Positions 15,340 through 53,497 of a stretch of 57,476 nucleotides of DNA are shown here, one piece after another; position 1 is the stretch's first letter; the number at the start of each line of letters is the position of its first letter. Under the pieces are notes generated by a model. It made no database searches and was not told where the DNA came from. It saw only the letters and a program-made list of their open reading frames with translations. The position numbers and the translations under genes are program-made. This DNA is from Bacillota bacterium (GTDB taxonomy: Bacteria > Bacillota > Sulfobacillia > JAJZYS01 > JAJYTV01), in contig JAJYTE010000013.1 in the NCBI GenBank assembly GCA_021793215.1, positions 1 through 57,476 of the forward strand, read 5' to 3'.

Positions 15340-15377
15340 GCCGCCTTCTGCCCGGCGAGGAGGGAGCGCCTCGAGGT

Positions 15378-36540: not shown

Positions 36541-36560
36541 CGCGTCCGTAGAACCGAAAC

Positions 36561-36592
36561 AGGCGGGGCGCCCCAGTGGGGCGCCCCGCCTG
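36561..36592. terminator. Bidirectional terminator hairpin
   Basis: A perfect 14-bp stem (AGGCGGGGCGCCCC / GGGGCGCCCCGCCT) with loop AGT between the convergent DUF1697 and 3D-domain genes. Confidence 0.75.
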
Positions 36593-36604
36593 CGCGTTCG
36601 TCCG

Positions 36605-37111
36605 CTACTTGCCGAGGATGTAGGCATGCACCTGCTGGATCCCGAAGTTCGAGACCACGGACTCCGATGCGTTGATGAAGATGTCGAGGCGATGGCCCTG
36701 GATCGCGCCTCCGGTGTCGACTGCGCGCGCGAGGAAGCCGCCTGCCGGCAGGTCCGGTGAACTGTAGCCCGTCACCCAAAGCAGCGTCCCCAGCGGGATG
36801 ACGCTCGGGTCCACCGCGACGTCGCCCGCGACGAGCGGCCGGCCGAAGTAGTCCACCGCGCCGTAGGGGTAGTTGTCCTGCAGCGTCGGCGCGTACGCGG
36901 TGGCGGTCAGCCGCAGCGATCCGAGCACGACGTGACCGTCGATCGTGCGTGCGCGCGATGCCGCGATCGCGAAGGGTACCGCCGCTACGAGGTGGACCGC
37001 AGGCGCCCGCACCGTCGCAACCGGAAAGTTCGGGGGCGCCATCGCGAATGAGACGGCTGGCCACAACAGCAATGACGCCAAGGCGGCGCCGAGTCCCAAG
37101 AGCTTTCTCAT
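36605..37111 (-). CDS. Secreted 3D-domain protein (SpoIID/MltA-like 3D fold)
   Basis: A 168-residue exported protein. A signal peptide (MRKLLGLGAALASLLLWPAV) precedes a 3D domain. The three conserved Asp residues are in VAVDPSVIPLGT, ARAVDTGGAIQG and HRLDIFINA, with TATAYAPTLQDNYPYG ahead of them. 3D domains occur in YabE/YuiC-type cell-wall hydrolases and in MltA-like lytic transglycosylases, so it probably acts on peptidoglycan. ATG 37111 follows GGAGG at 6 nt. No cell-wall-binding domain is present, as in short stand-alone 3D proteins. Confidence 0.88.
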   Translation of the reverse strand: MRKLLGLGAALASLLLWPAVSFAMAPPNFPVATVRAPAVHLVAAVPFAIAASRARTIDGHVVLGSLRLTATAYAPTLQDNYPYGAVDYFGRPLVAGDVAVDPSVIPLGTLLWVTGYSSPDLPAGGFLARAVDTGGAIQGHRLDIFINASESVVSNFGIQQVHAYILGK

Positions 37112-37411
37112 CCGTCGACCTCCAACTTTAAATACTCGTGTCGGTTGGCGGATTGAGTTTACGGAACGAAGACGTTTCTGTCATGCGGTGCCGGGTGCGC
37201 TGAGCGGCGATGACGGAACGCCAGTCGGTGCGCATGACGGCCTTTGGCGGCGCTCGCAGTATCGAACCGGTGTGGGACGTCGCGGCATGCGTGAGAAAGC
37301 GTGCCAGTCGTCCGTGCGACGCGCTTTGGCTGTCTACATTGAGCGAACGTGAACGGGGACGGCGTGCGCGCCGCGTGGCGCAAACGCCGTCCCCGTTTTG
37401 CGTGAGGCGCG
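37112..37411. other. Intergenic region with a large hairpin at its right end
   Basis: About 300 bp. The left end holds the ribosome-binding site of the 3D gene. At 37353-37396 a 13-bp stem (ACGGGGACGGCGT / ACGCCGTCCCCGT) with an 18-nt GC-rich loop lies just downstream of the minus-strand propeller gene and may stop its transcript; a T-run follows only on the plus strand. No gene was recognised in the rest. Confidence 0.5.
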
Positions 37412-38692
37412 CTACTTCGCGCCTGCCTTCGTCCAGGTCGCGCCGCCGTCCGCCGTGTGCAGGAGGCCGCCCTGCACGACCGCCCAGCCGTCCATCCCGC
37501 TCACGAAGTCGAGCTCCGAGACTCCCTGGAGGCTGAGGTTCGGCTGCACCGACGTCCAGTTGCCTCCGCCATCTGCCGTCCGGAAGAGTTTCGTACCGTC
37601 GCTCGCGACGATGACGCTTTGGGAGACGACCGAGTAGACGAGCCGGTTGCCGCCACCGTTCACTGGTACCGTCGGAGTCCATGTTCGGCCGCCATCGCTT
37701 GTCTGGTAGAAGTCGGTCGGCTGTCCGGGCATCCCGAACGCGACCGGCATCACCCCGTCGCTGCCGCCGAAGAAGTAGGGCGGCATGCTCGTGGCCGATC
37801 CGCCTTGGGCGGAGAGTCCCGAAGGCACGGGCAGGGTCGGCACCTGCCACGTCTTCCCGCCGTCCTGCGTCTCGTAGAGCAGGATGGAGTCGGCTGCCCA
37901 CTCGCCGGTGATCCAGCCGTGCTGCGCATCGAGGAACCCGAAGCCGCTCTTGTCGCCGCCGAAGATGCGCGCGTTGCTCTGCGGCGTTCCCTGGGAGATC
38001 ACCTGCCAGCTCGCGCCCGCGTCGGCGCTGCGCAGCAGGAGGACTCCTTCGCTGCCCGCCGCCGCCCCTTGGTGGAGAAGAAGGAAGCCGGTGCCGCTTG
38101 GAAGAAATTGGATCTGCGGCGTCCCGTTCTGCTGCAGCGTCACGTGCTGCCAGCTGAGACCGCCGTCGCTCGTGCGGTAGACGATGACGACCGGCAGCTG
38201 CTGGCTGATGCTGCTGAGCTGGCTCACGGCGAGCCACGCGTGGCTGCCGTCGGTGGTGCCGATCGCGGGACCACCGTACCCGGGCGCGCTCTTCGGTTCT
38301 CCCTTCGGGGTCACATCCAGCCAGGTCTTCCCGCCATCCGTCGTCCGCAGGACGCGGCCGGTCTTGGTGATGCCCCATCCCACGGCAGGATTCACCATGT
38401 CGAGATTCTGAAGTGACGCCTTCGCGATCACCACCACCGGTGGCGTGGGATGGTGGGGGTGGTTCGCGGGCTTCGTCGTCTGCGGTGCACGTGATAGCAG
38501 AGCCAGGGTCAGGAGGCCGGCCGCGACGGCCCCCGCGCCGATCCACCAGGCGCTGCGGCGCAGGCCAGAACGAGCCATATGCGGACTCTTCGCTGCGGCT
38601 TGCAGCGTTCGATGGATTCGAAGGCGCGCTTCCTCCGGGAGCTTCTCCTTCGCCAAGCTGAGGTACCGCGCGCGCCACTCCTTCTCGTTCAT
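37412..38692 (-). CDS. Anti-sigma-like membrane protein with YCF48/BNR-type beta-propeller
   Basis: A 426-residue protein. The first ~45 residues are charged and cytosolic. One membrane helix follows (WWIGAGAVAAGLLTLALLS), then a His/Pro linker and an extracytoplasmic propeller. The propeller has repeated Asp-box motifs such as RTTDGGKTWLDV, RTSDGGLSWQHV, RSADAGASWQVI, ETQDGGKTWQVP and TSDGGRTWTPTV. The gene overlaps the stop of the ECF sigma gene upstream (ATGA), which suggests that the N-terminal segment holds the sigma factor and the propeller senses an envelope signal. No zinc anti-sigma motif is visible. Family naming is from the Asp-box repeats. Confidence 0.78.
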   Translation of the reverse strand: MNEKEWRARYLSLAKEKLPEEARLRIHRTLQAAAKSPHMARSGLRRSAWWIGAGAVAAGLLTLALLSRAPQTTKPANHPHHPTPPVVVIAKASLQNLDMVNPAVGWGITKTGRVLRTTDGGKTWLDVTPKGEPKSAPGYGGPAIGTTDGSHAWLAVSQLSSISQQLPVVIVYRTSDGGLSWQHVTLQQNGTPQIQFLPSGTGFLLLHQGAAAGSEGVLLLRSADAGASWQVISQGTPQSNARIFGGDKSGFGFLDAQHGWITGEWAADSILLYETQDGGKTWQVPTLPVPSGLSAQGGSATSMPPYFFGGSDGVMPVAFGMPGQPTDFYQTSDGGRTWTPTVPVNGGGNRLVYSVVSQSVIVASDGTKLFRTADGGGNWTSVQPNLSLQGVSELDFVSGMDGWAVVQGGLLHTADGGATWTKAGAK

Positions 38693-39243
38693 GTCGTCGT
38701 GCCCTCCCCTTCGTGTGGCGCACGTTCGCTCGAGAGGCTCTCGCGCAGACGTCGGAGCGCCCGGTGCAACGTCACGCGCACCCAGACCGCCGACCTCCCG
38801 AGCAGAGTAGACGTCTCCGCGACCGACCGGTCCTCGATGATCCTGAGGATGAAGACCTGTCTCTGCGCGATCGGAAGGAGTCGTAGGCTCGCCTCCAGGT
38901 CGAGGCGCCCGAGGCCCACGTCTTCCGCTGCCTGCACGCTTTGGAGCCGTTCGGTCGATTCGCTCGGATCACTTCGCCTTCGCCGGAGGCTGTCCGCGAT
39001 CGCATGCTTCGCGATGGCGAAGAGCCATGTCCGCTCGGATGAGCGGCCGGCGAACCGGTCCCAGTTGCGCAGCGCGCCGAGGAAGACTTCCTGCACGACG
39101 TCCTGTGCCTCTGGGGAACTCCCGAGGCTGAACCGGGCGAACCGGTAGATCTCATCGCCGTAACGGCCAAAGAGCCGCTCCACCGCCTTGCCGGCGGTCT
39201 CATCACCCATCGCCTCCGCGGCGCGCCGGGCGGGTCGGATCAT
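38689..39243 (-). CDS. ECF-type sigma factor
   Basis: A 184-residue sigma-70 factor. Region 2 is AQDVVQEVFLGALRNWDRF and TWLFAIAKHAIADSLRRRR. Region 4 is IAQRQVFILRIIEDRSVAET and AVWVRVTLHRALRRLRESL. Its stop overlaps the start of the propeller protein gene. This is the third ECF gene in the window, each beside a membrane partner. Autoregulation and the target genes are unknown. The ATG at 39243 is used; the in-frame ATG at position 12 of the protein is an alternative. Confidence 0.88.
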   Translation of the reverse strand: MIRPARRAAEAMGDETAGKAVERLFGRYGDEIYRFARFSLGSSPEAQDVVQEVFLGALRNWDRFAGRSSERTWLFAIAKHAIADSLRRRRSDPSESTERLQSVQAAEDVGLGRLDLEASLRLLPIAQRQVFILRIIEDRSVAETSTLLGRSAVWVRVTLHRALRRLRESLSSERAPHEGEGTTT

Positions 39244-39449
39244 GCGTCACGATCTCACCCCCTCGCTTGGGTAGTCGTGTGATGGCAGCGAAGCGTTACA
39301 GCCGCCGTTCGCTTCGTGCCCAAGGTCTTCCCCTACGCCGCGGAGAGCTTGCGTCGACAGTTTGAGAGCCCGGACCCGCATGCGCCCGGGGGGGAAGTAG
39401 CGTTGATCCCTTTGAACGCCTCCTGCGGCACTGGAGCGCAGCAGCCGAG
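39244..39449. other. Intergenic region before the broken phosphotransferase
   Basis: About 200 bp. The right-hand part (from about 39369) reads open in the phosphotransferase frame and looks coding (DPFERLLRHWSAAAE), so the gene originally began upstream of ATG 39450. A run of seven G residues at 39388-39394 may hold a second indel: removing one G would put ATG 39380 in frame. Confidence 0.4.
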
Positions 39450-40155
39450 ATGGAGGCGCGTCTCGGAGGCGGAGTGCGGAACGATGTCCGCAGCGTTCGA
39501 CTCGCCGGGAAGAGGTTCGCCGCAAGACGTTCTGCCCGCCCGTCGCAGACTCTAGCCTGGGAGATCGAACTGCTGCTGCATCTTTCGCGCTGACGTGAGA
39601 GTCCCGCGTCCGCTCGAAAGCCGAGACGGGCGGTTCGAGGTCGAAGGCCTCTCGGTCTTCGAGTGGCTGGAAGGGGATCCGCCGCGTACGGAACGCGATT
39701 GGCGAGAGGTCAGCGGGACGCTTAGCCTCGTGCACGATGCGACGCGCGGGTGGGCGCAGCGTCCTGGCTTCGCTTCCTCCATCGACCTTCTGACACAAGA
39801 TCATGCTGGCGATGTGGACCTTGCCGCGCTTCCGAACGAGGTGGCTGACCTATGTCGGGCGGCCTGGCGCAAGCTGGTGGGCCATCCGACCTCCGTCGTC
39901 CATGGCGACCCGAACGCAGGGAACATCCGCATGACGCGGGAGGGCGTTGGACTCTTGGACTGGGACGAGGCGAGGGTAGATGTCTCGCTCTTGGACTTTT
40001 CCGACATCCCTGGCGGCGATGGAGACATGTCCGAGACGGTGCTGGCCGATGTTCGCGCTGCCGGGGACGCCTGGGAGGTCGCGAGCGCCTGGGTGAAAGA
40101 GCCCGAGTATGCGCGCCGCCGACGGGACGAACTCGAGTCCCGGACGCGGGGATGA
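39450..40155 (+). pseudogene. Frameshifted aminoglycoside/choline-kinase-like phosphotransferase
   Basis: Frame 1 from ATG 39450 encodes LGGGVRNDVRSVRLAGKRF and ends at TGA 39591 after WEIELLLHLSR. Frame 2 continues from about 39589 with ADVRVPRPLESRDGRFEVEG and runs to 40155. It contains the kinase catalytic loop VVHGDPNAGNIRM and the metal motif LLDWDEARV. Removing one base near 39588 would rejoin a normal APH-family protein. This is most simply a decayed gene, with sequencing error as the alternative. The substrate, when intact, is not predictable. Confidence 0.75.
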
Positions 40156-40589
40156 AGGCGTGACCAACGGTACAAAGCTGTTCGTGATCCCGGGTTTAGG
40201 TACGGCGGTATGTACCCGCAGCGAGCATCAGGCAGGCGAGAGGTGCGGCAGGCGCAAGCCTGCCGCCGCTTCGTTTCCCGTGCCTAGCCCAACTTGCCTG
40301 CCACTCGCTGGAGCGGGACATCCAACGTATCTGTCGTGCGGCTGACTCTCGGTCACGGGGTTCCTTGGCAAACCGGCAGTTCTTGATCTGCTCCAGGAAC
40401 CGTTGCCGGTCTTCTCTGGAAGATTGGTCCTGCGGCCGTACATCCGACCGACGGCTCTCGTGCTGCCCGGAATGAGCACGCTACAGCGCGTCGCTGATCT
40501 ACGCATCCACTGGACGGATCCCGCATGTATAAATAACCAGTGGATACCGTCTCGGTTACGAAGCCACCGAGCTGGCGTAAGGGTCTCGC
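40156..40589. other. Gene-poor region downstream of the TnpB/Cas12-like gene, with two stem-loops
   Basis: No ORF is supported here. Two strong inverted repeats are present: GCGGCAGGC-GCAA-GCCTGCCGC at 40245-40266 (9-bp stem, tetraloop) and ATCCACTGG ... CCAGTGGAT at 40505-40513 / 40537-40545 (9-bp stem, 23-nt loop). The second lies about 45-85 nt beyond the stop codon of the minus-strand TnpB/Cas12-like gene, where TnpB-family guide RNAs are usually encoded. The first may be a terminator. A functional RNA is possible but not shown. Confidence 0.45.
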
Positions 40590-42338
40590 TCAGTCGTTCG
40601 CCGCAGCCCAGCGAACCAGATGGCGGCAAGTGTTCAGTTCCGGGTCAAAGAGCTGGCTGCACGTTGGACAGCGCACGACCTCCAGGCCGCCTCCGCCGTG
40701 AGTGTCGTAGCAGGCAAAGTGCTTCCACACTTGCAGACCTCGCGGTGTCACGTACACATGTCGGTCCAATTTGGCGAATGCCTGCTCCAGGGCACGCTCT
40801 AGGGTGAACACAGCTGCAATCTGCGTCAGCCTTCTCGTGGACATCCGCAAGAAATCGTCCCGGATCTCAGGTACCGGACGCTCTCTAAGCCTGTGCAAAA
40901 CCGGCTTGTGGATCACGATGCGGCCATAGAGGCCGGCGTTGCGGTGTGCAAATGTTCGGTATAGATCTACGCGGAATCCGATGCACTTCTCGCGCAGATT
41001 CGCTTCCCACTCCAGCAGCCGCTTGTCCTTCCGCCGCCAGGCCTCCAGGCCTGAGAAGCCTGTCTCGTCGCCAGGGAAACGGTGCGAACGCCAGTGCTCA
41101 GCGACCGCTCCAAGCGTCTCTGGCGCGTCCTTCTGTCGGTCGTTCAACGCTTCGGCAAGCCAGGATGGGACGGGACCGCTATGCTCGCCGCACCATGCTT
41201 CGACCTCTTGCGCTGCTGCGCGATACTCCTTCGCACGGGTTGAACGCAATCGGTCGAGCGTGCTGAAACGTTCCAACAGCGGATTCGGCAATACGAGTTC
41301 CTCGTAAGAGCCGTCGGAACCCAGGCATACCGCAACTCGCAAGCCAGACGCCTTGGATTCCCACCCGAGGGCGATGGCCAGGGTCCGGGTGGGCGCAACG
41401 TCAGCCACCTGCGTGCAGTCGGTATGGACCGTGAGTGAGAGCGCGTAGACGAAGTTGGTTCCGACACGCCGCCGAAGGACCTGGGCAGCCTTGATCACAC
41501 CGTCTTCCGGCAGCGGGCGATGCATCACCATCGGCAGCTCCAGCCAGACCGGATCACGTCCCCTCGATGCGACGCGGATCCGCACACTGGTTCGCGAGCG
41601 CCTTCTCCGCGCACCTCGGGGGATGTGCTCCCACCCCGAAAAGTCCACCGGGCCAATCTGCAACATGCGGCTCCACTTCGAGTCTTGGCTGAAGAGGCGT
41701 AGCATCGTGCACGGAGCGTCTGCGTCCTTTGCGTCATGCTGCAGCTGTACAGCCCAGAAACCCGTCCCGTCGAAGGCCCGCTCGTGTAGTGCGCCGGGTC
41801 TCCCTGCCTTCGTCACGGACCGCTCCGCACGGCGTCTGGCGACTTCGTAGCGATCACGTGTCAGGAGCGAGTTCCCCCAGTAGAGCCCGCGCGCGGAGAA
41901 GTCGCCATAGACTACCCTTGCGGTCTCTCGCCGCCAAGCCTGGAGCGCTTCGATCTCCGTTCGGACATTGTCCCAGTGGGCGCCCTTGGCAGCGTAGAGT
42001 CGCTGCTGGAGGTGCCTGCGCTGTACCTCCATCACGGTTGCCTGCTCTCGCCACTCGCTAAGAACGGCCTCTCTATCGCGCCTCGCCTGCTCGATCCGCG
42101 TTCTTGCCGCGGCAATGTCGTCAAGTGTCCTCTCCAGTTCCAGAGCGATCTGCTCGACCGCCTCGACGGAGCGCCAGATCGCACGCTCGCGTTGCCGGTA
42201 TTCATGCTCGATCGCGACGAGCGCGTTCCAGTACTCCGTCTCCAGTGCGAGTTGCCGTTCGGCCTCGGCGGGGACCTCCACGGGCTGCCCGCAGCCGAAC
42301 CTATAGATCCGCGTCGCGCCGCCGTCTGTCGCATGCAC
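40590..42338 (-). CDS. TnpB/Cas12-like RuvC-fold protein, probably nuclease-dead
   Basis: A 582-residue protein. The first ~200 residues are coiled-coil-like and basic. The C-terminal half matches the RuvC core of TnpB and type V-U-like Cas12 proteins. At the RuvC-I position TLAIALGWESKASGLRVAV has Ala where the catalytic Asp is expected. At RuvC-II, YGRIVIHKPVLHRL has His where Glu is expected. At RuvC-III, CPTCSQLFDPELNTCRHL has Glu where the D-x-N-A-A Asp is expected. Only part of the zinc ribbon (CPTC plus one earlier Cys) remains. GTG 42338 follows AGGAGG at 9 nt. No CRISPR array or TnpA gene is adjacent. A guide-RNA-directed binder or repressor is inferred. The upstream fluoride riboswitch is unique in this context. 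Confidence 0.72.
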   Translation of the reverse strand: MHATDGGATRIYRFGCGQPVEVPAEAERQLALETEYWNALVAIEHEYRQRERAIWRSVEAVEQIALELERTLDDIAAARTRIEQARRDREAVLSEWREQATVMEVQRRHLQQRLYAAKGAHWDNVRTEIEALQAWRRETARVVYGDFSARGLYWGNSLLTRDRYEVARRRAERSVTKAGRPGALHERAFDGTGFWAVQLQHDAKDADAPCTMLRLFSQDSKWSRMLQIGPVDFSGWEHIPRGARRRRSRTSVRIRVASRGRDPVWLELPMVMHRPLPEDGVIKAAQVLRRRVGTNFVYALSLTVHTDCTQVADVAPTRTLAIALGWESKASGLRVAVCLGSDGSYEELVLPNPLLERFSTLDRLRSTRAKEYRAAAQEVEAWCGEHSGPVPSWLAEALNDRQKDAPETLGAVAEHWRSHRFPGDETGFSGLEAWRRKDKRLLEWEANLREKCIGFRVDLYRTFAHRNAGLYGRIVIHKPVLHRLRERPVPEIRDDFLRMSTRRLTQIAAVFTLERALEQAFAKLDRHVYVTPRGLQVWKHFACYDTHGGGGLEVVRCPTCSQLFDPELNTCRHLVRWAAAND

Positions 42339-42348
42339 AGCTACGTAC

Positions 42349-42391
42349 CTCCTGCTTCACGAGTCGGAACATCAGTCGATGTAAGCAGGAG
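42349..42391 (-). promoter_or_regulatory. RBS-sequestering stem of riboswitch A
   Basis: The minus-strand ribosome-binding region AAGCAGGAG(G) (plus 42349-42357) is perfectly complementary over 9 bp to CTCCTGCTT (plus 42383-42391), which is the 3' strand of the aptamer's P1 stem plus the following bases. Aptamer folding and RBS masking are mutually exclusive, so fluoride binding should switch translation ON. Confidence 0.7.
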
Positions 42392-42432
42392 TCGTCAGCC
42401 GTGCGGCGGTTAAAGGCGGAACTCCATCGCCT
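42385..42432 (-). ncRNA. Fluoride riboswitch (crcB motif), copy A
   Basis: On the minus strand the RNA reads GGCGATGGAGTTCCGCC, then AACCGCC, CGGCTGACGACTCCT, which follows the crcB consensus (GGcGAUGG, AACCGCC pseudoknot strand, GGCU-AUG-CUCCU), with ACG in place of AUG. P1 pairs GGAGTT with GACTCC. It begins 17 nt after the stop codon of the hyfB-like gene and ends about 45 nt before the TnpB/Cas12-like start codon. No independent promoter was found, so read-through from the hydrogenase-like operon is possible. Ligand: fluoride, by family knowledge. Confidence 0.85.
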
Positions 42433-42448
42433 TGCGGAACTGCCGGAA

Positions 42449-44419
42449 TCACAGGAGACCTGAGAGCTTGAGCCAGACGATCCCCCCCATCAGCACGACC
42501 ATGATGTACCCGAGGTAGTGGCTGAGGTGCCCTGTCTGCATGCTCTGGATGGCTTGCGCGGCGCGCCGTGCAGCCTGAAGGAGCGGTCCGAACACGTTTA
42601 CGAGCAGCCGGTCGGCCGCATCGGTATGCACCTCGACGGCATCTTCGCCGACGGTACGCGTACTCCGGTGGCGAATCACCGGAGCGAACGCCAGCCGTAG
42701 CGGCTGGGCGATTCCGTCGGCCGTCCATCCGTAGGACGAGACGTACTCTTCACCGCCGTTCCAAGGGGCCGGCACCGCCGCCCGACGTGGATTCGGGCGC
42801 AGCCAAAGCCACCGCAGCAGTGCGACAATCCCCATGATCCCGCCGCCAAACCAGAGGAGATCCCAAGGGGACGTCGCCGTGAACCCGCCGTCGGGGAAGA
42901 GAATGACGCCCTGGGCTCCCGGAAGTCCGGTGAACACACGACCGCCCAAGGAATCCAGCAGTGCTGTTGTGCCCGGGTGCGTGAACGTCGGAGCGATGAG
43001 TCCGCTGGCGCCAAGCGCCCTCGGCGAGGCGGCGGCAACCCATGGCACGATCCAGGTCGCGCCGACGCCTGCGAGCCAAGCGATGAGCGCACCCAGCGCC
43101 ATGCCAAGCGTCTCCCCAGCGCGGGGAGGCCCCGCTGGGGCAGTGCGCCTGGGCCCTAGGAAGATGGCCGCGTACCAGCGCAGGATCGCCGTCGCCCCAC
43201 CAGCGGTGACGAGGGCCACAACCAGAATCACAACAAGGAGTGCGGGCCGCAGGCTTGTGGAGGCACCCATGAAGATGCTCTCCGCCGCCATCCATTCGGC
43301 CAAGTAGCCGCCCGTCGGCGGCATCGCCATGAGGGCTGCACCTGCGAGCAGTGTCAGTCCCGCGGCCAGCGGAGCGGCTCTGAAGAGGCCACCCAGGCGG
43401 TTCATCTCGCGCGTGTCCGTCACCCGTTCGATCCAGCCGGAAGCGAAGAAGGCCGTGAACTTCGCTCCCATGTGCATCAGGAGGAGCGTGTAGGTGCTGC
43501 TGAGCGCAAGGGCCGCTGCGGCAGATTGCCCTGCGTCTGCAAAGACGTAGGAAAGCCCGAGACTGGCGAATGCGAGCCCGATCCACTCCACGGTCGAGTA
43601 GGCCAGCACTCGCTTGTGGTCATTGTCTACGATCGCGTGGATGACGCCGAGCAGTGCTCCCAAGAGCCCCAGGACGACCATTCCCCACGCGACCTGCAGC
43701 GGCGGCGGCGCCCATGCGAGCCAGCGCACAAGTCCCACCATGGCCACTGTCGTCGTAACGCCCGAAAGTGCGGCCGCGGCTGCGCCAGGCGCCTCGGGCT
43801 CCGCGAGCGGCAGCCAGAGTTGAAACGGGAAGAGTCCGGCCTTCGATCCGAGCCCGAGGATGCCCAGTACGGCGATGATGTCGGTAACTCCCGGAGATCT
43901 CAGCCCAGCTGACAGCAGAAGGGCGCCAAGAAGCAGTGCCGCAGCGCCCGCCTCGCTCATCACGAGCATCGCCCACCCGGAAACCGCCGCACGCTGACTG
44001 TTTCCTTGCGAGACCACCATTCCGTAGACGGCCACGGCGAGCACACCCCATGCCACCACCATCGCGAGCGGAGACGAAGATTCAAGGAATGCCGCAACGG
44101 CCACCCCAAGCCATGCAAGCGATACCCATTGCCCCTTGCCGAACTCCTTCGCCGCAAACACGAGGCCCGTCGTGAGGAGGAGGCCCTCGCCGAGGAGCCC
44201 CCAGAACCCGGCCCACGGCGTGAGGGCATAGGTCAGGGAGCCCGCCATCGTATCCACGGCCAACGCCGAGGTGTTGCCGGCGAGCGCGAGAATCAGCTGG
44301 ATACACAGGACGACGATCGTCGCAGACGCGAACACGGGCACGGATGCGCGGCGCCCACTCCACGCAACGAAACTCGCGATGGCCGCAAGTGCAAGCGCTA
44401 CGAGAAATAGGACCATCAT
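42449..44419 (-). CDS. HyfB/HycC-like antiporter-type membrane subunit
   Basis: A 656-residue NuoL/M/N-like subunit of a group-4 hydrogenase-type complex, with about 14 helices. Key lysine segments for ion translocation are GLGSKAGLFPFQLWLP and DNDHKRVLAYSTVEWIGL. The C-terminal cytosolic part contains WNGGEEYVSSYGWTADG and the closing helix region YLGYIMVVLMGGIVWLKLSG, which are typical of HyfB/HycC. ATG 44419 overlaps the HyfI-like stop (ATGA). It ends the six-gene operon. It should move protons or sodium ions, but whether it is driven by redox chemistry is unclear because the large subunit lacks its NiFe site. Confidence 0.88.
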   Translation of the reverse strand: MMVLFLVALALAAIASFVAWSGRRASVPVFASATIVVLCIQLILALAGNTSALAVDTMAGSLTYALTPWAGFWGLLGEGLLLTTGLVFAAKEFGKGQWVSLAWLGVAVAAFLESSSPLAMVVAWGVLAVAVYGMVVSQGNSQRAAVSGWAMLVMSEAGAAALLLGALLLSAGLRSPGVTDIIAVLGILGLGSKAGLFPFQLWLPLAEPEAPGAAAAALSGVTTTVAMVGLVRWLAWAPPPLQVAWGMVVLGLLGALLGVIHAIVDNDHKRVLAYSTVEWIGLAFASLGLSYVFADAGQSAAAALALSSTYTLLLMHMGAKFTAFFASGWIERVTDTREMNRLGGLFRAAPLAAGLTLLAGAALMAMPPTGGYLAEWMAAESIFMGASTSLRPALLVVILVVALVTAGGATAILRWYAAIFLGPRRTAPAGPPRAGETLGMALGALIAWLAGVGATWIVPWVAAASPRALGASGLIAPTFTHPGTTALLDSLGGRVFTGLPGAQGVILFPDGGFTATSPWDLLWFGGGIMGIVALLRWLWLRPNPRRAAVPAPWNGGEEYVSSYGWTADGIAQPLRLAFAPVIRHRSTRTVGEDAVEVHTDAADRLLVNVFGPLLQAARRAAQAIQSMQTGHLSHYLGYIMVVLMGGIVWLKLSGLL

Positions 44420-44937
44420 CCCACCTCACCCGCCGTGGCGCCGCGGCCGACGAGTGAGAGAAGACCGTCAAGCAGATCGTCCGGCGAGGGAGGACATCCA
44501 GGGACCCAGGCGTCCACCGGCACGATCTCTGCGAGGTTGCCCACAACGCCGGGGGCGCCGCGGAATACGCAGCCGTCGACGGCGCAGTCTCCAGTCGCGA
44601 CGACGAGCTTCGGGTTCGGCATCGCGTCGTAGGTGGCCCGGATCACAGGCACCATGGCGTCAGTAACGACTCCGGTGATCAGGAGAAGGTCTGCGTGTCG
44701 GGGCGAGGGGGTGAACGAAAAGCCGAAGCGGGAGAGGTCGTAGACTGGACTCCCAAGGAGGCCGATCTCCGATTCGCAGCCGTTGCAGGACCCCGCATCG
44801 AGGTGGCGGATCGCGAGTGATCGTGAGAAGAGCCGCGCGGGCACTCCTGTCTTCGCTGGCCGCGACCCTGCCCTACGCCGCAGCACGGAGGGACCCTTGG
44901 CAAGATTCACGATCCACCGGGGATAGAACACTGGCAT
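44416..44937 (-). CDS. HyfI/HycG-like [4Fe-4S] small subunit (NuoB-like)
   Basis: A 173-residue NuoB-type protein that binds one [4Fe-4S] cluster next to the large subunit. Cys ligands are in GSCNGCESEIGLL, ATGDCAVDGC and VPGCPPSPDD, so the cluster site seems intact even though the partner large subunit has lost its NiFe ligands. It is overlapped by the hyfB-like gene and preceded by the large-subunit gene with a 6-bp gap. It sits in the middle of the operon, as in hyf/hyc-type clusters. No ferredoxin-type HyfA/HyfH gene is present. Confidence 0.9.
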   Translation of the reverse strand: MPVFYPRWIVNLAKGPSVLRRRAGSRPAKTGVPARLFSRSLAIRHLDAGSCNGCESEIGLLGSPVYDLSRFGFSFTPSPRHADLLLITGVVTDAMVPVIRATYDAMPNPKLVVATGDCAVDGCVFRGAPGVVGNLAEIVPVDAWVPGCPPSPDDLLDGLLSLVGRGATAGEVG

Positions 44938-44943
44938 TCCCTC

Positions 44944-46290
44944 CTAGAGGTCGAGCGACGCGACGGCGAGGCTGAAGGACGCGTCGATGATCGGGAAATC
45001 CTGCAGGATGTTGTGATTGGCCACGGCGAGCGGCACCGCGACCCAGTTGATGCTTGACGCAGTCCTGATCTGGCACGTTTCAACGCGGCCGCCGCCCACG
45101 GCGACCCGATAGAAGAGGCGGCCGCGCGGCGACTCGACGAGGCCGTAACCTAGGCCATTGCCGAAGTCCAAGGGCGGTGGCGAGCTCGCCGCCCCGCACC
45201 CACCCGCCCTGCGCAGCATGGCGATCGACTGGGTGATCTCCTCGCAGCGCACGAAGTAGCGCCCGTACGCATCGCCCGTAGTCCAGCCGGCTGGACGGCG
45301 GCCGTAGCAGAGATCGGGGTACCAGGCGTAGGGGAGATCCCATCGCACGTCTTCGTTGCAGCCGGCCGACCGACCGACGACGCCGACGAGTTCGAGTGAT
45401 TTGCTGGGAATGCCGCCCGCCCCGTGCAAGCGGTCGAGGAAGGAGTTCGTGCGGTCGAGGGAACGCCGCACGGCCACGAACTGACGTTCGACTTCCTCAA
45501 CGAAGGACGGCAGCTCTCGGGAGGTGTCTCGAATGCCCCGTCGCCATCCTCCTGGGCTGACGACGCCGCGCAGGTAGCGATGTCCCGTCCACTCCTTGCC
45601 GAAGCGCAGAACGGTCTCGCGCAGGCGATAGAGGTCAGCGGCGGCGACGACTGTACCCGTTGCTGCCGCAAGCGACGCGAGGTCCCCAAGGTGACTGTGC
45701 AGGCGTTCGAGTTCGGCAAGTGCGCTCCGAAGAACGGAAGTGCTTTCACCGACCGCGAGACCCAGCGCATCCTCCACCGCCAGGCTGAAGGCAAGCGCGT
45801 GCGCGACCGTCGAGGTGCCGGTTACCCGCTCTGCGATCTCCAGTGCTGCGCCGACCTCAGCCCCCTGCATCAACCGGGCGACGCCACGGCGCTTGTAACC
45901 CCGCCGCAACGTGAGGGCGTGGATCTCGTCGCCGAGGACGTCCATCTCGTAACGGAGCGCCTCCGCGACATCGGCGCGCACCGGCCCGAGTGGCACGACG
46001 TGCATGCCCTCGCCGATGACTTCCCGCTCGGCAGCCGCAGGCTCTAAGGCTTCGCATCCGAAGTCCTGCTCCTCCACGAAGCGCAGGCTCGGGAAGCCCC
46101 GTTCGCTCGGTCGCGCGTGCGGCCCGGGGCCCACATCGATTTCGGTGATCTCTCCCTCGCCCTTGCGCCAAAGCACTACCCGCACGCTGCGGTGGTCCGG
46201 GAAGACGTGCAGGACCTGGTTCCCATCCTTGACAGCCCGCTGGCAGAGGGACAACAAAGAGACCTCTGTCAGTTCCTGCGTGTGATCCAC
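44944..46290 (-). CDS. HyfG/HycE-like large subunit without NiFe ligands (Ehr-like)
   Basis: A 448-residue fusion of a NuoC-like N-terminal domain and a NuoD/hydrogenase-large-subunit-like domain. In true NiFe hydrogenases the first Cys pair lies in ERxCGxC; here the site reads AERVTGTSTVAHALAF, both Cys replaced by Thr. The C-terminal DPCxxC pair is absent: the chain ends in SLAVASLDL at the place where ASLDPC is expected. The protein therefore cannot hold the NiFe centre and needs no maturation protease. It resembles energy-converting-hydrogenase-related (Ehr) complexes. GTG 46290 follows AAGGAGGG at 6 nt. Confidence 0.88.
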   Translation of the reverse strand: MDHTQELTEVSLLSLCQRAVKDGNQVLHVFPDHRSVRVVLWRKGEGEITEIDVGPGPHARPSERGFPSLRFVEEQDFGCEALEPAAAEREVIGEGMHVVPLGPVRADVAEALRYEMDVLGDEIHALTLRRGYKRRGVARLMQGAEVGAALEIAERVTGTSTVAHALAFSLAVEDALGLAVGESTSVLRSALAELERLHSHLGDLASLAAATGTVVAAADLYRLRETVLRFGKEWTGHRYLRGVVSPGGWRRGIRDTSRELPSFVEEVERQFVAVRRSLDRTNSFLDRLHGAGGIPSKSLELVGVVGRSAGCNEDVRWDLPYAWYPDLCYGRRPAGWTTGDAYGRYFVRCEEITQSIAMLRRAGGCGAASSPPPLDFGNGLGYGLVESPRGRLFYRVAVGGGRVETCQIRTASSINWVAVPLAVANHNILQDFPIIDASFSLAVASLDL

Positions 46291-46306: not shown

Positions 46307-47647
46307 CTAATGCGGAAGCGGCCAGTGGAGCAGCCACGGGACCGCAAAACCGGAGATGAGAAGCAGGGTCGACAAGACCACCGTCGGCACAGTTTCGAAC
46401 GCCGCCTCCGGAGTGGGGCGTATCCCGGTCGTGGGCTGGTACCAGAGGCGCGGTGCACGGTAGGCGATCGCGATGAATCCAAACGCCAGCAGGGCAATCA
46501 TCAGAATCGCGGGAACGGCTGTGGCGCGGCTCGCGAGTCCGCCCATCGCGACAAGCCATTCGCTGAAGAATGGCCCAAGCGGGGGGACTCCCGCGAGCGC
46601 AGCGAGCCCGAGCAGGAGGCCGCCGCTCCCCCAAGGCATCCCTTCGTGCAACCTGCCGATCTTGTCCCCGTCGACCGTGCCGTATCTGGTCTGGATCGCC
46701 CCGCTGACGAAGAAGCACTGGCTCTTTGCAAGTCCATGGGTGATCACGTGCAGCAGTGCGCCCAGAAGGCCGATGCCGCCGAATCCCATTCCGAGCGCGA
46801 TGATCCCCATGTGTTCTACCGAGGAGTAGGCCAGCAGCCTCTTGAGGTTGCGCTGGCCCGCCATCGCCCCGACGCCGACGAGCAGAGACAGGAGCCCTAA
46901 AGCGATCAGCAGATCGTTCGGCCAGGCGGCGCCGTGAGTCAGGGTCCTCACCTTGTCCAGCCCGTCGTGCAGCACCCAGAGGATGCCGGCGAGTTCCGCA
47001 CCGGAAAGCAGGGCGGAAACGGGCGCCGGCGCCTGCGCGTGGGCGTCTGGAAGCCATGTGTGAAGGGGCACGAGTCCCGCTTTGGCACCGAATCCAACCA
47101 GCAGCAGGACCGCGCCGGCGGCCACTGTTGCAGGACCGCCTCCGATCAGGACTACGCCGGCAAGGGCGATGAGTCCGCCCATCCCTGCGAGCATGAGATA
47201 CTTCCATGCCGCCTCGAATGGGTGGGCGCCCGGCTTCAGTCCGACGAGCGCCACAGAGCTTAGCGTCGTCGCCTCGACGGCAACCCAGAGGGCAAGCAGC
47301 GACCAGTGCTCACCGAGCGCGAAGAGACTGGCCGTGAATACGCCGAGCAGCAGGAAGTAGGAAGACTGCAGCCTTTTGGGCCACGCATCCTCGATCCCGC
47401 CGGCCAGGTAGCTCGGCGAGGCGAAGAACGCGACTGCTCCAAGAACCGCAACGAGCGCCTGGTAGGCATCGCCCCAGTCGCGGGTCGAGTATGCCGCCCA
47501 GGCGAAGGCGACTGCCAAAAGAGCAAGCAGGATGGACCCGATGTTGCCTCCGGACCTCTGTTGCCAAGCGGCGAACAGTCCCAGGACGAGTGCGAGCACG
47601 ACCCCAATGAGCCCGAGCTGATGAGTGATGGGTAGCATGCCGGCCAT
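46307..47647 (-). CDS. HyfF-like antiporter-type membrane subunit (NuoL/MrpD-like)
   Basis: About 446 residues with roughly 13-14 helices, of the NuoM/N and MrpD type. GAKAGLVPLHTWLPDAHAQA holds the conserved Lys and the WLPDAH signature; GQRNLKRLLAYSSVEHMGII holds the second Lys; LLHVITHGLAKSQCFFVSGA holds a further Lys near helix XII. It is the second ion-translocating subunit of the complex. ATG 47647 overlaps the HyfE-like stop (TAATG); ATG 47638 is a second start. The frame is open further upstream, but a start there would run far into the hyfE-like gene. Confidence 0.88.
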   Translation of the reverse strand: MAGMLPITHQLGLIGVVLALVLGLFAAWQQRSGGNIGSILLALLAVAFAWAAYSTRDWGDAYQALVAVLGAVAFFASPSYLAGGIEDAWPKRLQSSYFLLLGVFTASLFALGEHWSLLALWVAVEATTLSSVALVGLKPGAHPFEAAWKYLMLAGMGGLIALAGVVLIGGGPATVAAGAVLLLVGFGAKAGLVPLHTWLPDAHAQAPAPVSALLSGAELAGILWVLHDGLDKVRTLTHGAAWPNDLLIALGLLSLLVGVGAMAGQRNLKRLLAYSSVEHMGIIALGMGFGGIGLLGALLHVITHGLAKSQCFFVSGAIQTRYGTVDGDKIGRLHEGMPWGSGGLLLGLAALAGVPPLGPFFSEWLVAMGGLASRATAVPAILMIALLAFGFIAIAYRAPRLWYQPTTGIRPTPEAAFETVPTVVLSTLLLISGFAVPWLLHWPLPH

Positions 47648-48240
47648 TACCCCCTGAGGTGCGTTAGGTGGTCCGCCGTCGGAGGCCCAGAGAACTCCGA
47701 CGTTCCTCGGCGCTGGAGCCATGCGAGCAGGGCTCCAAGAATCAGAACTTCCACAACAGCAAGTGCCTCGGGCAATCCGGGGACGGACGGATACTGCAGC
47801 ATGAGCAGACTCACCCCGAGTTCGGCTCCGACCAGAAGGAGCGCATGTACCCAGATGTCCCGTCGCATCATCGCGAGCCAGAGTGCGGTGCTCAGCACGC
47901 CAACGGCCAGGCCTGAACTACCGAGGGTCCACCAGGAAAGAGTGAGCGCCAGCACCGATCCGAGCACCAGAGACGGTGTCCCGCGCGTCGCCATGCCGTA
48001 CTCGGCGTGCATCCGGCGCGCAAGCAGCGCTGGTACAGCGAACACCTTCACGACCAGCCACAGGGCCGCGAGGACGAGCCAAGCGGAATCCAACCGTCCG
48101 ACGTAGACTGCGGCCGCGACCGTTGCGAGGGCGGCGATGCGATACCACCCCACCGCGCTCTGACTTCTGCGAGCGATCGCCAGAAGGACTAGGGAGAGCC
48201 ATACGGTTAGGGCAACGACTGCAAGACTGCCGTCTGTCAC
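47647..48240 (-). CDS. HyfE-like membrane subunit (NuoK-related)
   Basis: A 197-residue hydrophobic protein with five or six helices, in the position and with the size of HyfE. LVVKVFAVPALLARRMHAEY and LPEALAVVEVLILGALLAWL agree with the family. HyfE is NuoK-like and contributes to the membrane arm of group-4 complexes. GTG 48240 follows GAGGAGG at 7 nt. Stop TAA overlaps the following HyfF-like ATG. Placement between the NuoH-like and NuoL-like genes supports the call. Confidence 0.78.
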   Translation of the reverse strand: MTDGSLAVVALTVWLSLVLLAIARRSQSAVGWYRIAALATVAAAVYVGRLDSAWLVLAALWLVVKVFAVPALLARRMHAEYGMATRGTPSLVLGSVLALTLSWWTLGSSGLAVGVLSTALWLAMMRRDIWVHALLLVGAELGVSLLMLQYPSVPGLPEALAVVEVLILGALLAWLQRRGTSEFSGPPTADHLTHLRG

Positions 48241-48252
48241 AAGCGTTCCTCC

Positions 48253-49185
48253 TCAAGAGATGGCGACGGCCAGTGCAGCCAGCGCCGCAATAGCGACGGA
48301 GACAGTGAGGTACTCGGAAATGCGAAGCAAGCGGAGCTTGGCGAAGGAAAACTCCACGAGCACCACCAACAGTCCGACAATGATCAGCTTCGCTGCCGTC
48401 GCAAGAGTCGCCAATGCGATCAGGGCGGGCGCGAGCGAAGCCGCGAGGCCCCAGGGTGTAGCGAGGACGTTGACCAGGATGACCCCAAGCACTGCGAACT
48501 TCATCCAGCCGCCCCACTCGTAGAGGGCGAGATCAGTACCGCTTGCCTCAAACGTTCTGTTGGGATCGATCAACGAAAGTTCCTGGCTGGAATCTGGGTT
48601 GTCGACGGGCAGTCGGCCAGCTTCCGCCAACACCAGCAGGAACCATGCAACGATGATCAAGCCGTGGCTGGGCGTAAGCAGGGCGGGTCCGCCGAACACC
48701 TGGTTCACGACAAACGGGATCGTCGCCCTGCCAACCGCAGCGGCGGTGAAGAGTGCTGCCAAGGTAAGGGGCTCGGCCAGGGTGCCGATGAAGCGGACGC
48801 GGCTGACCGCGATCGACGAGTAAGGACTACCCGCATCCGCGGATGCCAACAGCAGCACGAGTCCTGCACCGCCAAGGATCATCCCGCCTCCCAGCATGTC
48901 TGCCATGAACGCCAACGGCAGTGGGAATGTCGTCAGCACCGGGATCAGGAGCGCGACGATCAACGGTGCGGAGAAGTAGACGACGGGAGCGATCGAGCGG
49001 ATCGCGGTCGTCTCGGTGTTCCAGACCGTTTCTTTATGGAACCACTTGTAAAGATTTCTGTATGGCTGCCATATCGGGGGCCCGATTCGTCGCATACCGC
49101 GCGCCTTTAAGCGGTCCATGATGCCTTTGAGAAGAGGAGCGAAGAGAAGCACGAATAGGACCTGGAGGATCTGTGCAATTAACAC
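48253..49185 (-). CDS. HyfC/HycD-like membrane subunit (NuoH-like)
   Basis: First gene of the operon; 310 residues, about eight helices. GPPIWQPYRNLYKWFHKETV (the cytoplasmic loop near the quinone/cluster site) and VLAEAGRLPVDNPDSSQELS (with the conserved Glu and PVDNP) are typical of the NuoH/HyfC/EchB group. GTG 49185 follows AAGGGGG at 6 nt. A fluoride riboswitch and a strong promoter lie directly upstream, so expression is expected to rise with intracellular fluoride. This subunit couples the peripheral arm to the antiporter-like subunits. Confidence 0.9.
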   Translation of the reverse strand: MLIAQILQVLFVLLFAPLLKGIMDRLKARGMRRIGPPIWQPYRNLYKWFHKETVWNTETTAIRSIAPVVYFSAPLIVALLIPVLTTFPLPLAFMADMLGGGMILGGAGLVLLLASADAGSPYSSIAVSRVRFIGTLAEPLTLAALFTAAAVGRATIPFVVNQVFGGPALLTPSHGLIIVAWFLLVLAEAGRLPVDNPDSSQELSLIDPNRTFEASGTDLALYEWGGWMKFAVLGVILVNVLATPWGLAASLAPALIALATLATAAKLIIVGLLVVLVEFSFAKLRLLRISEYLTVSVAIAALAALAVAIS

Positions 49186-49190
49186 AAAAG

Positions 49191-49236
49191 GCCCCCTTCA
49201 CAGGGGCATAGAAATACCCCTGCCGAATTCGACAGG
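49191..49236 (-). promoter_or_regulatory. Expression platform of riboswitch B
   Basis: Three hairpins compete. (1) GCCCCT-GTGA-AGGGGGC (plus 49191-49207) masks the RBS AAGGGGG and is followed by CCTTTTG, so it could also terminate. (2) A 9-bp stem at 49201-49222 (minus CAGGGGTAT / ATGCCCCTG) frees that RBS. (3) CCTGTC-GAATTC-GGCAGG (49219-49236) joins the aptamer's 3' strand to the base of hairpin 2. Ligand-bound aptamer should favour hairpin 2 and thus ON. Confidence 0.65.
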
Positions 49237-49290
49237 AGTCATTAGCCGTGGTTGGCGGTTTGGGGTTTCCCAGGCGGATCTCCATCGCCT
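49231..49290 (-). ncRNA. Fluoride riboswitch (crcB motif), copy B
   Basis: On the minus strand the RNA begins GGCGATGGAGATCCGCCT, has a variable hairpin GGGAAACCC, then AACCGCC and CGGCTAATGACTCCT, an excellent fit to the fluoride-aptamer consensus. It starts within a few nucleotides of the transcription start predicted from the upstream promoter and ends about 46 nt before the HyfC-like start codon. From the literature I recall crcB motifs being reported in front of formate-hydrogenlyase-type genes; this is a family-level memory, not a check made here. Confidence 0.92.
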
Positions 49291-49298
49291 TGGGTTGA

Positions 49299-49327
49299 AT
49301 AATAGGGAAGCCCCGACAAGATGTCAA
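49299..49327 (-). promoter_or_regulatory. Near-consensus sigma-A promoter of the hydrogenase-like operon
   Basis: On the minus strand TTGACA (49327-49322), a 17-bp spacer, and TATTAT (49304-49299). The start site is expected near 49292, just in front of the fluoride aptamer. Confidence 0.85.
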
Positions 49328-51421: not shown

Positions 51422-53224
51422 CTACTCCACCGTCACGCTCTTCGCGAGGTTCCTAGGTTGGTCGACGGAGCAGCCTCGCGCCTCGGCGACCGTTACCGCC
51501 AGAAGCTGCAGCGGAAGTGCCCCGATCAGGTACGCCGCAGTGGCATCCTGGATCGGCAGCCCGATGTGCAGCGTGCCCCTGAGGTCCGCGCCGACGGACA
51601 CTCCATAGGCGCCGCGGGCGACGGCCTCTGAGAGCGAACTGCTCAGCTTCGTTGTGTGGCGGGGGTCGGTCGAACAGACGATCACAGGCACCCGATCATC
51701 GACGAGCGCCAGCGGGCCGTGCTTCAGTTCTCCGGCCGCGAAGGCCTCGCTCCAGATGTACGAGAGCTCCTTCAACTTGAGAGATCCTTCGCGGGCGAGG
51801 CTTACGTCCTGGCCGCGGCCGAGGAAGATCACTCCCGGAGCCTTGGCGCAGCGCTCCACGAGATCGTCCGGTAGGAGGAACTCCGCGAGGAAATCCTCGG
51901 CGATGATCGGTGCGGCGCGCAGGGCGGCGAGGTGGTCCGGGTCGTACCCGCGGCCGTGCGCGGCGGCGAGCGCTGAGACCAGTAGGTCGAGCGCAACCGC
52001 CTGGGTCGTGAACGCTTTGGTCGACGCGACGGAGATCTCGGTTCCAGCCCGCAGGTCGAAGACGAAGTCGCTCTCGCGCGCAATCGTGGAGCCGGGGGCA
52101 TTCACGAGGCCGAGCACGCGCGCCCCGAGGCTTTGCGCGTGACGGAGCGCCGTCAGGGTGTCGATCGTCTCGCCCGACTGGCTCACCGCCACTGCGAGGG
52201 TTCCAGGCTCGAGGAAGCTCCGGGTATCGCGAAACTCGCTGGCGAGATCGGCTGCCGCGGGGATCTGCGCGAACTCCAGCAGGCGCTCTGTGGCCATCTG
52301 GCTCGCGTGCAGCGACGACCCCATCGCGAGGAACTGCACGCGCTTGACGCTGCGCAGCGCGCCTTCGGTCAGGCCCGCGTCCGTGAGGTCGACGGCGTCC
52401 GCGTCCCCAAGGCGCCCGCGCATCACGGAGCGCCAGGCGGCCGGCTGCTCGAAGAGCTCCTTGACGTAGAAGTTGCGGTGGTGTCCGGAGTCGGGAAGAT
52501 CCCCGGAGTCGGAGATCTCGTGCCCGACCTTGCGAACGGGGGCGAGGTCCTCAAGTCGAAAGACGTCGACCCGACCCGGCCAGAGGTCCGCGATCTCGCC
52601 GTCGTCGAGGTAGATGCAGCGCGAGAGCCACGGCGCGAGCGCGATGGCCCCCGACGCTACGAACACCTCGCTGTCGGTGTAGCCGATCGCGATCGGGCTC
52701 GTCCGCCGCACCGCGCACATGTGGTTTCCGTCCCGAAGGTCGAAGGCGAGTAGCGCGTAGGCGCCCTCGCAGCGCCCCGCGACTGCCTGAAGGCGGTGCA
52801 GGAGGTCGCCCTCCGCCTCCTCCAGGAGGTGCGCGATCAGCTCGGAGTCGGTCTCGGATCGCAGGACGTGCCCGCGGGCCGAAAGTTCCTCCCGCAGCGC
52901 GGCGGCGTTCTCGATGATGCCGTTGTGGACGACGGCGATGCGCCCCTCGCAGTCGAGATGTGGATGGGCGTTCTGGTCCGTGACACCGCCGTGCGTCGCC
53001 CAGCGCGTGTGGCCGATCCCGATCGACGCCGGAGGCGGAGGGTTCCTGGCCACCTCGTCCTCGAGTACCCGCAGTGGCCCCGCACGCTTCGCGAGGTGGA
53101 TGCCCCTCGCCGTACCGAGCGCGATGCCGGCGGAGTCGTACCCGCGGTACTCGAGACGTTTCAGCCCACCGAGGAGTACCTCCGCAATGGACTGCGGACC
53201 TACGTATCCCATGATCCCGCACAT
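51422..53224 (-). CDS. glmS: Glutamine--fructose-6-phosphate aminotransferase (isomerising)
   Basis: A 600-residue enzyme that makes glucosamine-6-phosphate for peptidoglycan. The N-terminal glutaminase starts MCGIMGYVG with Cys1 as nucleophile and shows RGYDSAGIA and HTRWATHGG. Two SIS domains follow: LAMGSSLHASQMATERL, VAVSQSGETIDTLTAL and the C-terminal SIS pocket. It ends PRNLAKSVTVE as usual. The frame is open further upstream, but ATG 53224 encodes the required N-terminal Cys. A glmS ribozyme lies in the 5' leader, giving control by glucosamine-6-phosphate. Confidence 0.97.
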   Translation of the reverse strand: MCGIMGYVGPQSIAEVLLGGLKRLEYRGYDSAGIALGTARGIHLAKRAGPLRVLEDEVARNPPPPASIGIGHTRWATHGGVTDQNAHPHLDCEGRIAVVHNGIIENAAALREELSARGHVLRSETDSELIAHLLEEAEGDLLHRLQAVAGRCEGAYALLAFDLRDGNHMCAVRRTSPIAIGYTDSEVFVASGAIALAPWLSRCIYLDDGEIADLWPGRVDVFRLEDLAPVRKVGHEISDSGDLPDSGHHRNFYVKELFEQPAAWRSVMRGRLGDADAVDLTDAGLTEGALRSVKRVQFLAMGSSLHASQMATERLLEFAQIPAAADLASEFRDTRSFLEPGTLAVAVSQSGETIDTLTALRHAQSLGARVLGLVNAPGSTIARESDFVFDLRAGTEISVASTKAFTTQAVALDLLVSALAAAHGRGYDPDHLAALRAAPIIAEDFLAEFLLPDDLVERCAKAPGVIFLGRGQDVSLAREGSLKLKELSYIWSEAFAAGELKHGPLALVDDRVPVIVCSTDPRHTTKLSSSLSEAVARGAYGVSVGADLRGTLHIGLPIQDATAAYLIGALPLQLLAVTVAEARGCSVDQPRNLAKSVTVE

Positions 53225-53304
53225 AAGCAAAACACCCCTTCTGCGGGCATGGTCCGCTCCCCATAGGGGAGACGGCCATGAACGTAGAGGGATGCATGTA
53301 GGCA

Positions 53305-53447
53305 TCCTTCTGCCTGCCGGCCCTTTTCCCCCAGAGATCGCTCCCTGGCTTTGTGAGGCCTTTGACGGTCCAGGCAGACCGGGGGTCACCCGCCGATGAT
53401 TCCGAGATCCCCCACCTCGTCCACTCGCGGGCGCGAGTGCTGGCGCT
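53305..53447 (-). ncRNA. glmS ribozyme-riboswitch
   Basis: On the minus strand the leader contains AGCGCCAGCACT (cleavage expected between A and G), a GC helix, AGTGGACGAGG, TCATCGGCGGGTGACC, GGTCTGCCT and later GGCAGGCAGAAGG. These are the conserved core, pseudoknot and P3/P4-side segments of glmS ribozymes in the right order and spacing. It self-cleaves with glucosamine-6-phosphate as cofactor, lowering glmS expression. The 3' limit is approximate. Confidence 0.93.
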
Positions 53448-53497
53448 TAGTGGTTGCCGCTTCCCTATGCTGTTGCGGGACCCTGCCCGTTGGCGCA

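Follow-up and report, generated by a model that had tools for sequence, protein, structure and literature searches.

A fluoride riboswitch leads a complex-I-like operon whose hydrogenase-type large subunit lacks the Ni-Fe ligands

Formate hydrogen lyase genes were listed among those located behind crcB motifs, the fluoride riboswitch, by Weinberg in 2010 (PMC2864571), and a 2024 review repeated the formate hydrogenlyase link and tied it to fermentation (PMC11139923). The original prediction for the locus described here mentioned such a listing, and both publications contain it. The 2024 review adds that both the cytoplasmic pH and the proton-motive force fall under fluoride, and that among riboswitch targets Na+/H+ antiporters rank second in frequency, behind exporters (PMC11139923). 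Ehr complexes, which are defined by a hydrogenase-like large subunit without the Ni-Fe cysteines and by Mrp-like antiporter subunits, are thought to couple cytoplasmic redox reactions with charge movement (PMC6349859). Apart from the formate hydrogenlyase listing, no prior report pairing a fluoride riboswitch with a hydrogenase-related complex was found in the literature searched, a search that most subscription papers lay outside. 'Formate hydrogenlyase' is still among the commonest fluoride-riboswitch targets given in reviews, and the finding reported here makes this unexplained association testable and suggests a functional label for one Ehr clade.

The window analyzed in this study is a stretch of 57,476 nucleotides from a Bacillota bacterium, in which a six-gene complex-I-like operon on the reverse strand is led by a fluoride riboswitch aptamer (Rfam RF01734; 49226–49298, reverse strand) that scored 44.1 bits against a gathering threshold of 34 (E 5.6e-9 over the window). 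The P1 and P2 stems and the GGAG/CUCC pseudoknot are present in the RF01734 alignment of this aptamer, the pseudoknot is unbroken in all eight leaders compared (window and relatives), and an additional small GGG/CCC hairpin sits between P1 and P2. The aptamer is abutted by a sigma-70-type promoter, TTGACA-N17-TATTAT (49299–49327, reverse strand), with 11 of 12 consensus matches, which is the sole such site in the surrounding 600 bp, where shuffled sequences are expected to contain 0.2 promoter-like sites. TTGACA/T-N17-TATnAT was found at the same position in 7/7 relatives of the window leader. These results agree with the prediction of a strong promoter firing into a crcB-motif aptamer.

Three mutually exclusive hairpins were found between the aptamer and the first gene, all on the reverse strand. 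The anti-aptamer hairpin ACUCCUGUC/GGCAGGGGU (49216–49239) takes the CUCC strand of the aptamer pseudoknot, and every one of its pairs is possible in 8/8 leaders. The putative fluoride-state hairpin CAGGGG/CCCCUG (49201–49222), which would free the SD and was located by hand and by folding, is intact in seven of the eight; it competes for a common CCCC strand with the third hairpin, GCCCC-GGGGGC followed by CUUUUGUGUU (49191–49207), a predicted SD-sequestering or weak-terminator element. Conservation across the leaders is weakest in the third hairpin, with full pairing in two leaders and one or two broken pairs in the other six when the register is held fixed, and folding of the leaders with broken pairs usually still predicted a hairpin over that place. 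The SD AAGGGGG of the first gene (49198–49192, upstream of a GTG start at 49185–49183; 49183–49198 together, reverse strand) falls within this hairpin, and AGGAGG occupies the SD position in two relatives (L033 and L040). A three-hairpin platform that can hide or expose the ribosome binding site, as had been proposed, is present.

Conservation does not extend to the U-run behind the third hairpin, which is broken in L036 and weak in L038; this favors control of translation, and a purely transcriptional terminator was rejected on the same observation. Read most simply, the leader would switch translation on, with weak termination as an optional addition; the predicted ON direction follows from the pairing logic. 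The window element shares with described fluoride riboswitches the aptamer, the pseudoknot, the position in front of a gene, a translation-type platform that hides the SD and a predicted ON response to fluoride, but it differs from the usual RF01734 member in governing a Ni-Fe-less complex-I-like operon, in its extra GGG/CCC hairpin and in being one of two riboswitches in the same operon. In four relatives (L031, L034, L036 and L038) no ATG, GTG or TTG was found at the expected start of HycD, GTA standing where the window has GTG, and in L034 and L036 an in-frame stop lies just 5' of that position.

The operon encodes, in the order HycD, HyfE, HyfF, HycE, HycG and HyfB and all on the reverse strand, a HycD/NuoH-like membrane subunit of 310 aa (48253–49185; Pfam NADHdh, 2.7e-22; FHL subunit 4 in PDB 7z0s, 1.6e-24), a HyfE/NuoK-like membrane subunit of 197 aa (47647–48240; assigned by position and by homology within the family, the equivalent in L124 giving a weak Oxidored_q2 match), a HyfF/Mrp-antiporter-like subunit of 471 aa (46307–47722; Proton_antipo_M, 1.5e-42) with conserved channel Lys and Glu, a HycE/NuoD-like large subunit of 448 aa (44944–46290), a HycG/NuoB-like small subunit of 173 aa (44416–44937) with the four N2-cluster cysteines retained, and a HyfB/NuoL-like antiporter subunit of 656 aa (42449–44419; Proton_antipo_M, 3.7e-26). 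With six homologous subunits encoded, the regulated unit is a complex-I-like membrane machine, as predicted. No HycF/NuoI-type ferredoxin subunit, formate dehydrogenase or NADH-dehydrogenase module was found among the six genes. The antiporter-like subunits share the conserved TM7 Lys and the TM12 charged residue with Mrp antiporters and the membrane arm of complex I, but here the peripheral arm to which they are joined is of the hydrogenase type and has no known catalytic site; the operon further differs from complex I in lacking both the NADH-dehydrogenase module and NuoI.

The large subunit could be aligned with FHL HycE (7z0s) and with Nqo4 of complex I. The N-terminal Ni-Fe ligands are gone, VTGTST (within ERVTGTSTVAH) standing in place of VCGICG of HycE, and the C-terminus, DASFSLAVASLDL, contains no CxxC. 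Neither CxxC pair was kept in any of 93 close homologues (the 80-locus scan described below plus the window's own family), and small and hydroxyl residues, themselves conserved (GTS-T; ASF-LSVA), occupy the positions of the four lost cysteines. We take the Tyr of Nqo4 'MDYLHS' to be the quinone-site Tyr of the complex I large subunit; opposite it, in the alignment to 2fug_4, the window large subunit has Gly.

Judged by its subunits, the window complex is best read as an Ehr-type complex and as neither a hydrogenase nor a formate hydrogenlyase. It shares all six homologous subunits with formate hydrogenlyase and hydrogenase-4 (group 4 [NiFe]), but lacks the Ni-Fe ligands, HycF/HyfH and formate dehydrogenase, whereas with Ehr complexes it shares the large subunit without Ni-Fe cysteines and the Mrp-like antiporter subunits. 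The label 'group-4-hydrogenase-like' in the original prediction holds for ancestry and subunit homology, but not for the active site, both Ni-Fe CxxC pairs and the HycF/NuoI-type subunit being absent and the sequences falling in a separate, riboswitch-linked Ni-Fe-less clade. Unlike other Ehr complexes, the window group forms a clade of its own with a C-terminal D/L-ASF-L-VA rather than NKSF-SYAG motif, and it is riboswitch-led whereas the Ehr controls are not.

When 84,980 species genomes were scanned with the alignment of the large subunit, 80 loci were recovered, the search patterns ([IA][LF]QDFPII plus one other) being selective for this subfamily. A covariance model trained solely on aptamers of the window's family was then run on the other loci. 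The riboswitch was located directly before HycD in 65 of the 68 operons with upstream DNA, 64 of them counted by script; the remaining one, L132, was assigned by eye owing to its split HycD frame. Two further operons, L145 and L146, have the riboswitch ahead of a same-strand GTPase gene that itself precedes HycD, and L126 carries a degenerate copy (15.7 bits). Five of the 65 come from L068–L074, the loci of the window's own family, whose aptamers trained the model, so that their support is RF01734 itself and the pattern search. Rfam's own model, run on eight loci, scored above threshold in five (L084, L086, L094, L099 and L108).

As controls, 40 complex-I-superfamily operons of the same phylum were searched, as a rule over 7 kb of upstream DNA (five had less); these comprised CxxC-bearing hydrogenases, other Ni-Fe-less Ehr operons (L234–L237, L243 and L256) and two NuoD loci. 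A fluoride riboswitch was found in 0/40 by the home-made model (best score 14.5 bits, E 0.083) and likewise by Rfam. For four control hydrogenases in genomes of the window's family (L258–L261), the genome-wide aptamer scan was empty on their contigs.

A tree built from 114 large subunits by a quick method placed the riboswitch-linked sequences in a single group (SH-aLRT 99), which splits in two. One part is mainly from Bacillota, and the other contains Pseudomonadota, Acidobacteriota, Planctomycetota, Nitrospirota, Myxococcota, Thermodesulfobacteriota, Lentisphaerota, Fidelibacterota and Bacillota, although single phylum assignments may be wrong because many records are MAGs. The pairing of riboswitch and complex is nearly obligate in the sampled clade and spans about ten phyla. 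A large subunit without the cysteines, together with Rfam-grade riboswitches, was also found on two plasmids of Betaproteobacteria (Burkholderia cenocepacia and Caballeronia), and plasmid matches from Azospirillum, Methylocalor, Allomeiothermus and Rhodococcus were set aside as other Ehr complexes of the NKSF/NKSV type, which are riboswitch-free. A different Ni-Fe-less Ehr group, mostly with the NKSF-SYAG C-terminus and without a fluoride riboswitch, is represented by L234–L237, L243, L256 and L271–L274. In L142 the HycG-like gene of the operon is accompanied by another, encoded on the other strand (14731–15456), and the large subunit is long-branched.

The residues of the membrane channels are largely conserved. 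The TM7 Lys was kept in 78/78 HyfB and 81/82 HyfF sequences and the TM12 Glu is invariant in both subunits, while the TM5 Glu was present in 79/82 HyfF and 59/78 HyfB sequences; the latter is absent from HyfB in the window's subclade, with Gly in 16/78. The operon genes are under purifying selection (dN/dS 0.08–0.26). The N2 [4Fe-4S] cysteines are retained in most copies, including that of the window, and one subclade carries a fused CxxCxxC ferredoxin-like domain. The last N2 cysteine is missing in eight loci, and all four are missing from the small subunit of a second paralogous operon of the window's family (L042, L044, L045 and L046). This small subunit is under purifying selection (dN/dS 0.15–0.22), the accompanying large subunit is 32–33% identical to that of the window, and weak aptamer matches (23–27 bits) lie before HycD. 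The redox arm is, as judged from these cluster ligands, eroding in places.

No fluoride exporter gene is near the operon, as had been noted; the genome has a CrcB pair on contig C31 and a CLC gene on C39, and CrcB pairs occur elsewhere in five of six good-quality genomes of the window's family. The coexistence of CrcB pairs with the complex suggests that the complex adds to export and is not a substitute for it, and the possibility that it stands in for a missing exporter was rejected on the presence of the CrcB pairs and CLC genes. Operon neighbors in relatives include CrcB, pyrophosphatase, DUF190, enolase, MutS and dynamin-like GTPase genes. The conjugative Burkholderia cenocepacia plasmid (L269; NZ_CP073671.1, 95094–110578) has six Rfam-grade fluoride riboswitches in the 15 kb around its operon, an island with genes for CrcB, a diphosphatase, a HAD hydrolase, DUF190, dynamin and MutS. 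Dynamin-like GTPase genes are near the operon in L110, L140, L141, L145, L146, L147 and L269, with a riboswitch upstream on the GTPase strand in L140, L147 and L269. A MutS-domain protein (L031:12174–13832, reverse strand) is led by a fluoride riboswitch in relatives, and in the window's genome a below-threshold aptamer match (24.7 bits; L041, G000:C36:5249–5338) was found at a MutS-like gene elsewhere.

These findings pose the question of what role a Ni-Fe-less complex I relative plays for a cell under fluoride. Without fluoride, the anti-aptamer hairpin (49239–49216) would take the pseudoknot strand and the hairpin at 49207–49191 would bury the SD, perhaps also terminating transcription weakly. 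Fluoride would stabilize the pseudoknot, upon which 49222–49217 would pair with 49206–49201, so that the SD is freed and the operon expressed. Once made, the complex most likely carries protons across the membrane or acts as a Na+/H+ exchanger, and such ion movement could offset the acid load and the loss of proton-motive force that arise from HF entry and fluoride/proton exchange. We consider it somewhat probable that the riboswitch in this way turns on an Ehr-type, ion-translocating complex for the repair of pH and proton-motive force; in this explanation the riboswitch identity, the exclusive pairings, the lost Ni-Fe site, the kept channel residues and the link throughout the clade are read from sequence, whereas the ON direction, the translocation and the physiological role are what we infer. 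Retained channel residues, eroding FeS ligands, neighboring fluoride genes and CrcB elsewhere in the genome favor ion translocation over export or a redox enzyme. Against the favored explanation, the N2 cysteines that are mostly kept and the fused ferredoxin-like domain suggest a redox role for many copies, the TM5 Glu is gone from HyfB in the window's own subclade, uphill pumping would have no evident energy source if the redox arm is silent, and the SD-sequestering hairpin is less conserved than the rest of the leader.

The published interpretation, in which fluoride pushes cells to fermentation and thereby induces a functional formate hydrogenlyase or group-4 hydrogenase, is in accord with annotation, with the literature and with the homology of the subunits to FHL, but it is very improbable given that both CxxC pairs are missing in 93/93 homologues, that true CxxC-bearing paralogues in the same genomes have no riboswitch, and that the operon contains neither a formate dehydrogenase gene nor HycF. 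Formate hydrogenlyase or hydrogenase identity was accordingly rejected on the loss of all four ligands and on the riboswitch-free control operons; the recurrence in about ten phyla of a riboswitch paired with a complex without metal ligands indicates that the 'formate hydrogenlyase' reading of these genes is probably wrong. It is hardly credible that the aptamer arose by chance or has decayed and leaves the operon uncontrolled: 44 bits is below the best members of the riboswitch family, but the score exceeds the Rfam threshold, promoter and platform are conserved in eight leaders, and the element recurs at the same position across the phyla.

Two further explanations assign the complex a different activity under fluoride. 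It might be an Ehr oxidoreductase that is driven by redox reactions, perhaps in a ferredoxin-dependent manner, passes electrons to a new acceptor and is induced to keep electrons flowing and energy conserved while enolase or the ATPase is blocked by fluoride. The N2 cysteines of most copies, the fused ferredoxin-like domain and the redox coupling proposed for Ehr complexes (PMC6349859) speak for this explanation, which we regard as unlikely but not implausible, since the operons have no HycF/NuoI subunit and no recurring partner enzyme, and the paralogue that lost all four N2 cysteines, like the several lineages that lost one, counts against it, the paralogue genes being still under purifying selection. 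Direct extrusion of F- (or HF), through the antiporter-like channels or the remodeled Ser/Thr-rich pocket of the large subunit and driven by ion gradients or by electrons, would account for the riboswitch that accompanies practically all operons in this clade, for conserved small and hydroxyl rather than random residues in place of the four cysteines, and for copies that lost FeS-cluster ligands while keeping channel residues. It seems unlikely, as CrcB and CLC exporters are present in the same genomes and standard exporters beside the operon in relatives, the proton-path residues are of the proton/cation-channel type, and no anion site is evident.

A second fluoride riboswitch, absent from the original prediction, begins 9 nt beyond the stop codon of the HyfB-like gene (42379–42440, reverse strand) and, at 55.5 bits, outscores the first; four relatives have it in the same place (60–64 bits). 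The strand CUCCUGCUU of its pseudoknot can pair with AAGCAGGAG, which holds the SD of a gene encoding a Cas12m homologue of 582 aa (40590–42338, reverse strand; PADLOC Cas12u1/Cas12f, about 1e-98; PDB 23vw, 4.3e-58, and 8pm4, 4.7e-33). This protein matches Cas12m (type V-U1/V-M) over its full length, but the three RuvC acidic positions are Ala, His and Glu (IALGW, IVIHKP and DPELN; our own assignment from the alignment to 23vw), and with these residues replaced the homologue should not cut DNA and is predicted to be nuclease-dead. It differs from Cas12m also in being led by a fluoride riboswitch, with no CRISPR array-like repeats within 36500–43000 and no Cas1 found in the window's genome. Five of ten genomes of the family have the gene; two of these copies are either interrupted or shortened internally, and the three intact ones are under purifying selection (dN/dS 0.15–0.23). 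As far as the literature searched shows, with most subscription papers outside the search, a fluoride-gated dead Cas12m at the end of such an operon is unreported.

Directly behind the Cas12m stop codon lies a 45-nt element (about 40536–40580, reverse strand) that is near-identical in three genomes and recognizable in a fourth, against 71–80% identity for the Cas12m gene. It occurs once per genome, no further copies being found in the ten genomes, and could be a guide RNA or a terminator. A conserved 13-mer after the Cas12m gene was rejected as a guide target: it recurs within the coding sequence of two other conserved genes of the family, judged by eye to be SatP-like and GDT1-like, and this sharing was treated as coincidence because of the shared peptide G-I-H-W. 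In a combination that we consider quite unlikely, the complex would be a fluoride-extruding or fluoride/proton-exchanging machine of a new class, derived from complex I and mislabeled 'formate hydrogenlyase' in about ten phyla, and in this lineage the dead Cas12m, switched on with the same operon, would regulate the fluoride response under RNA guidance. Elsewhere in the window, a glmS ribozyme (53308–53458, reverse strand; 69.9 bits) was identified before an ORF similar to glutamine-fructose-6-phosphate aminotransferase (51422–53389).
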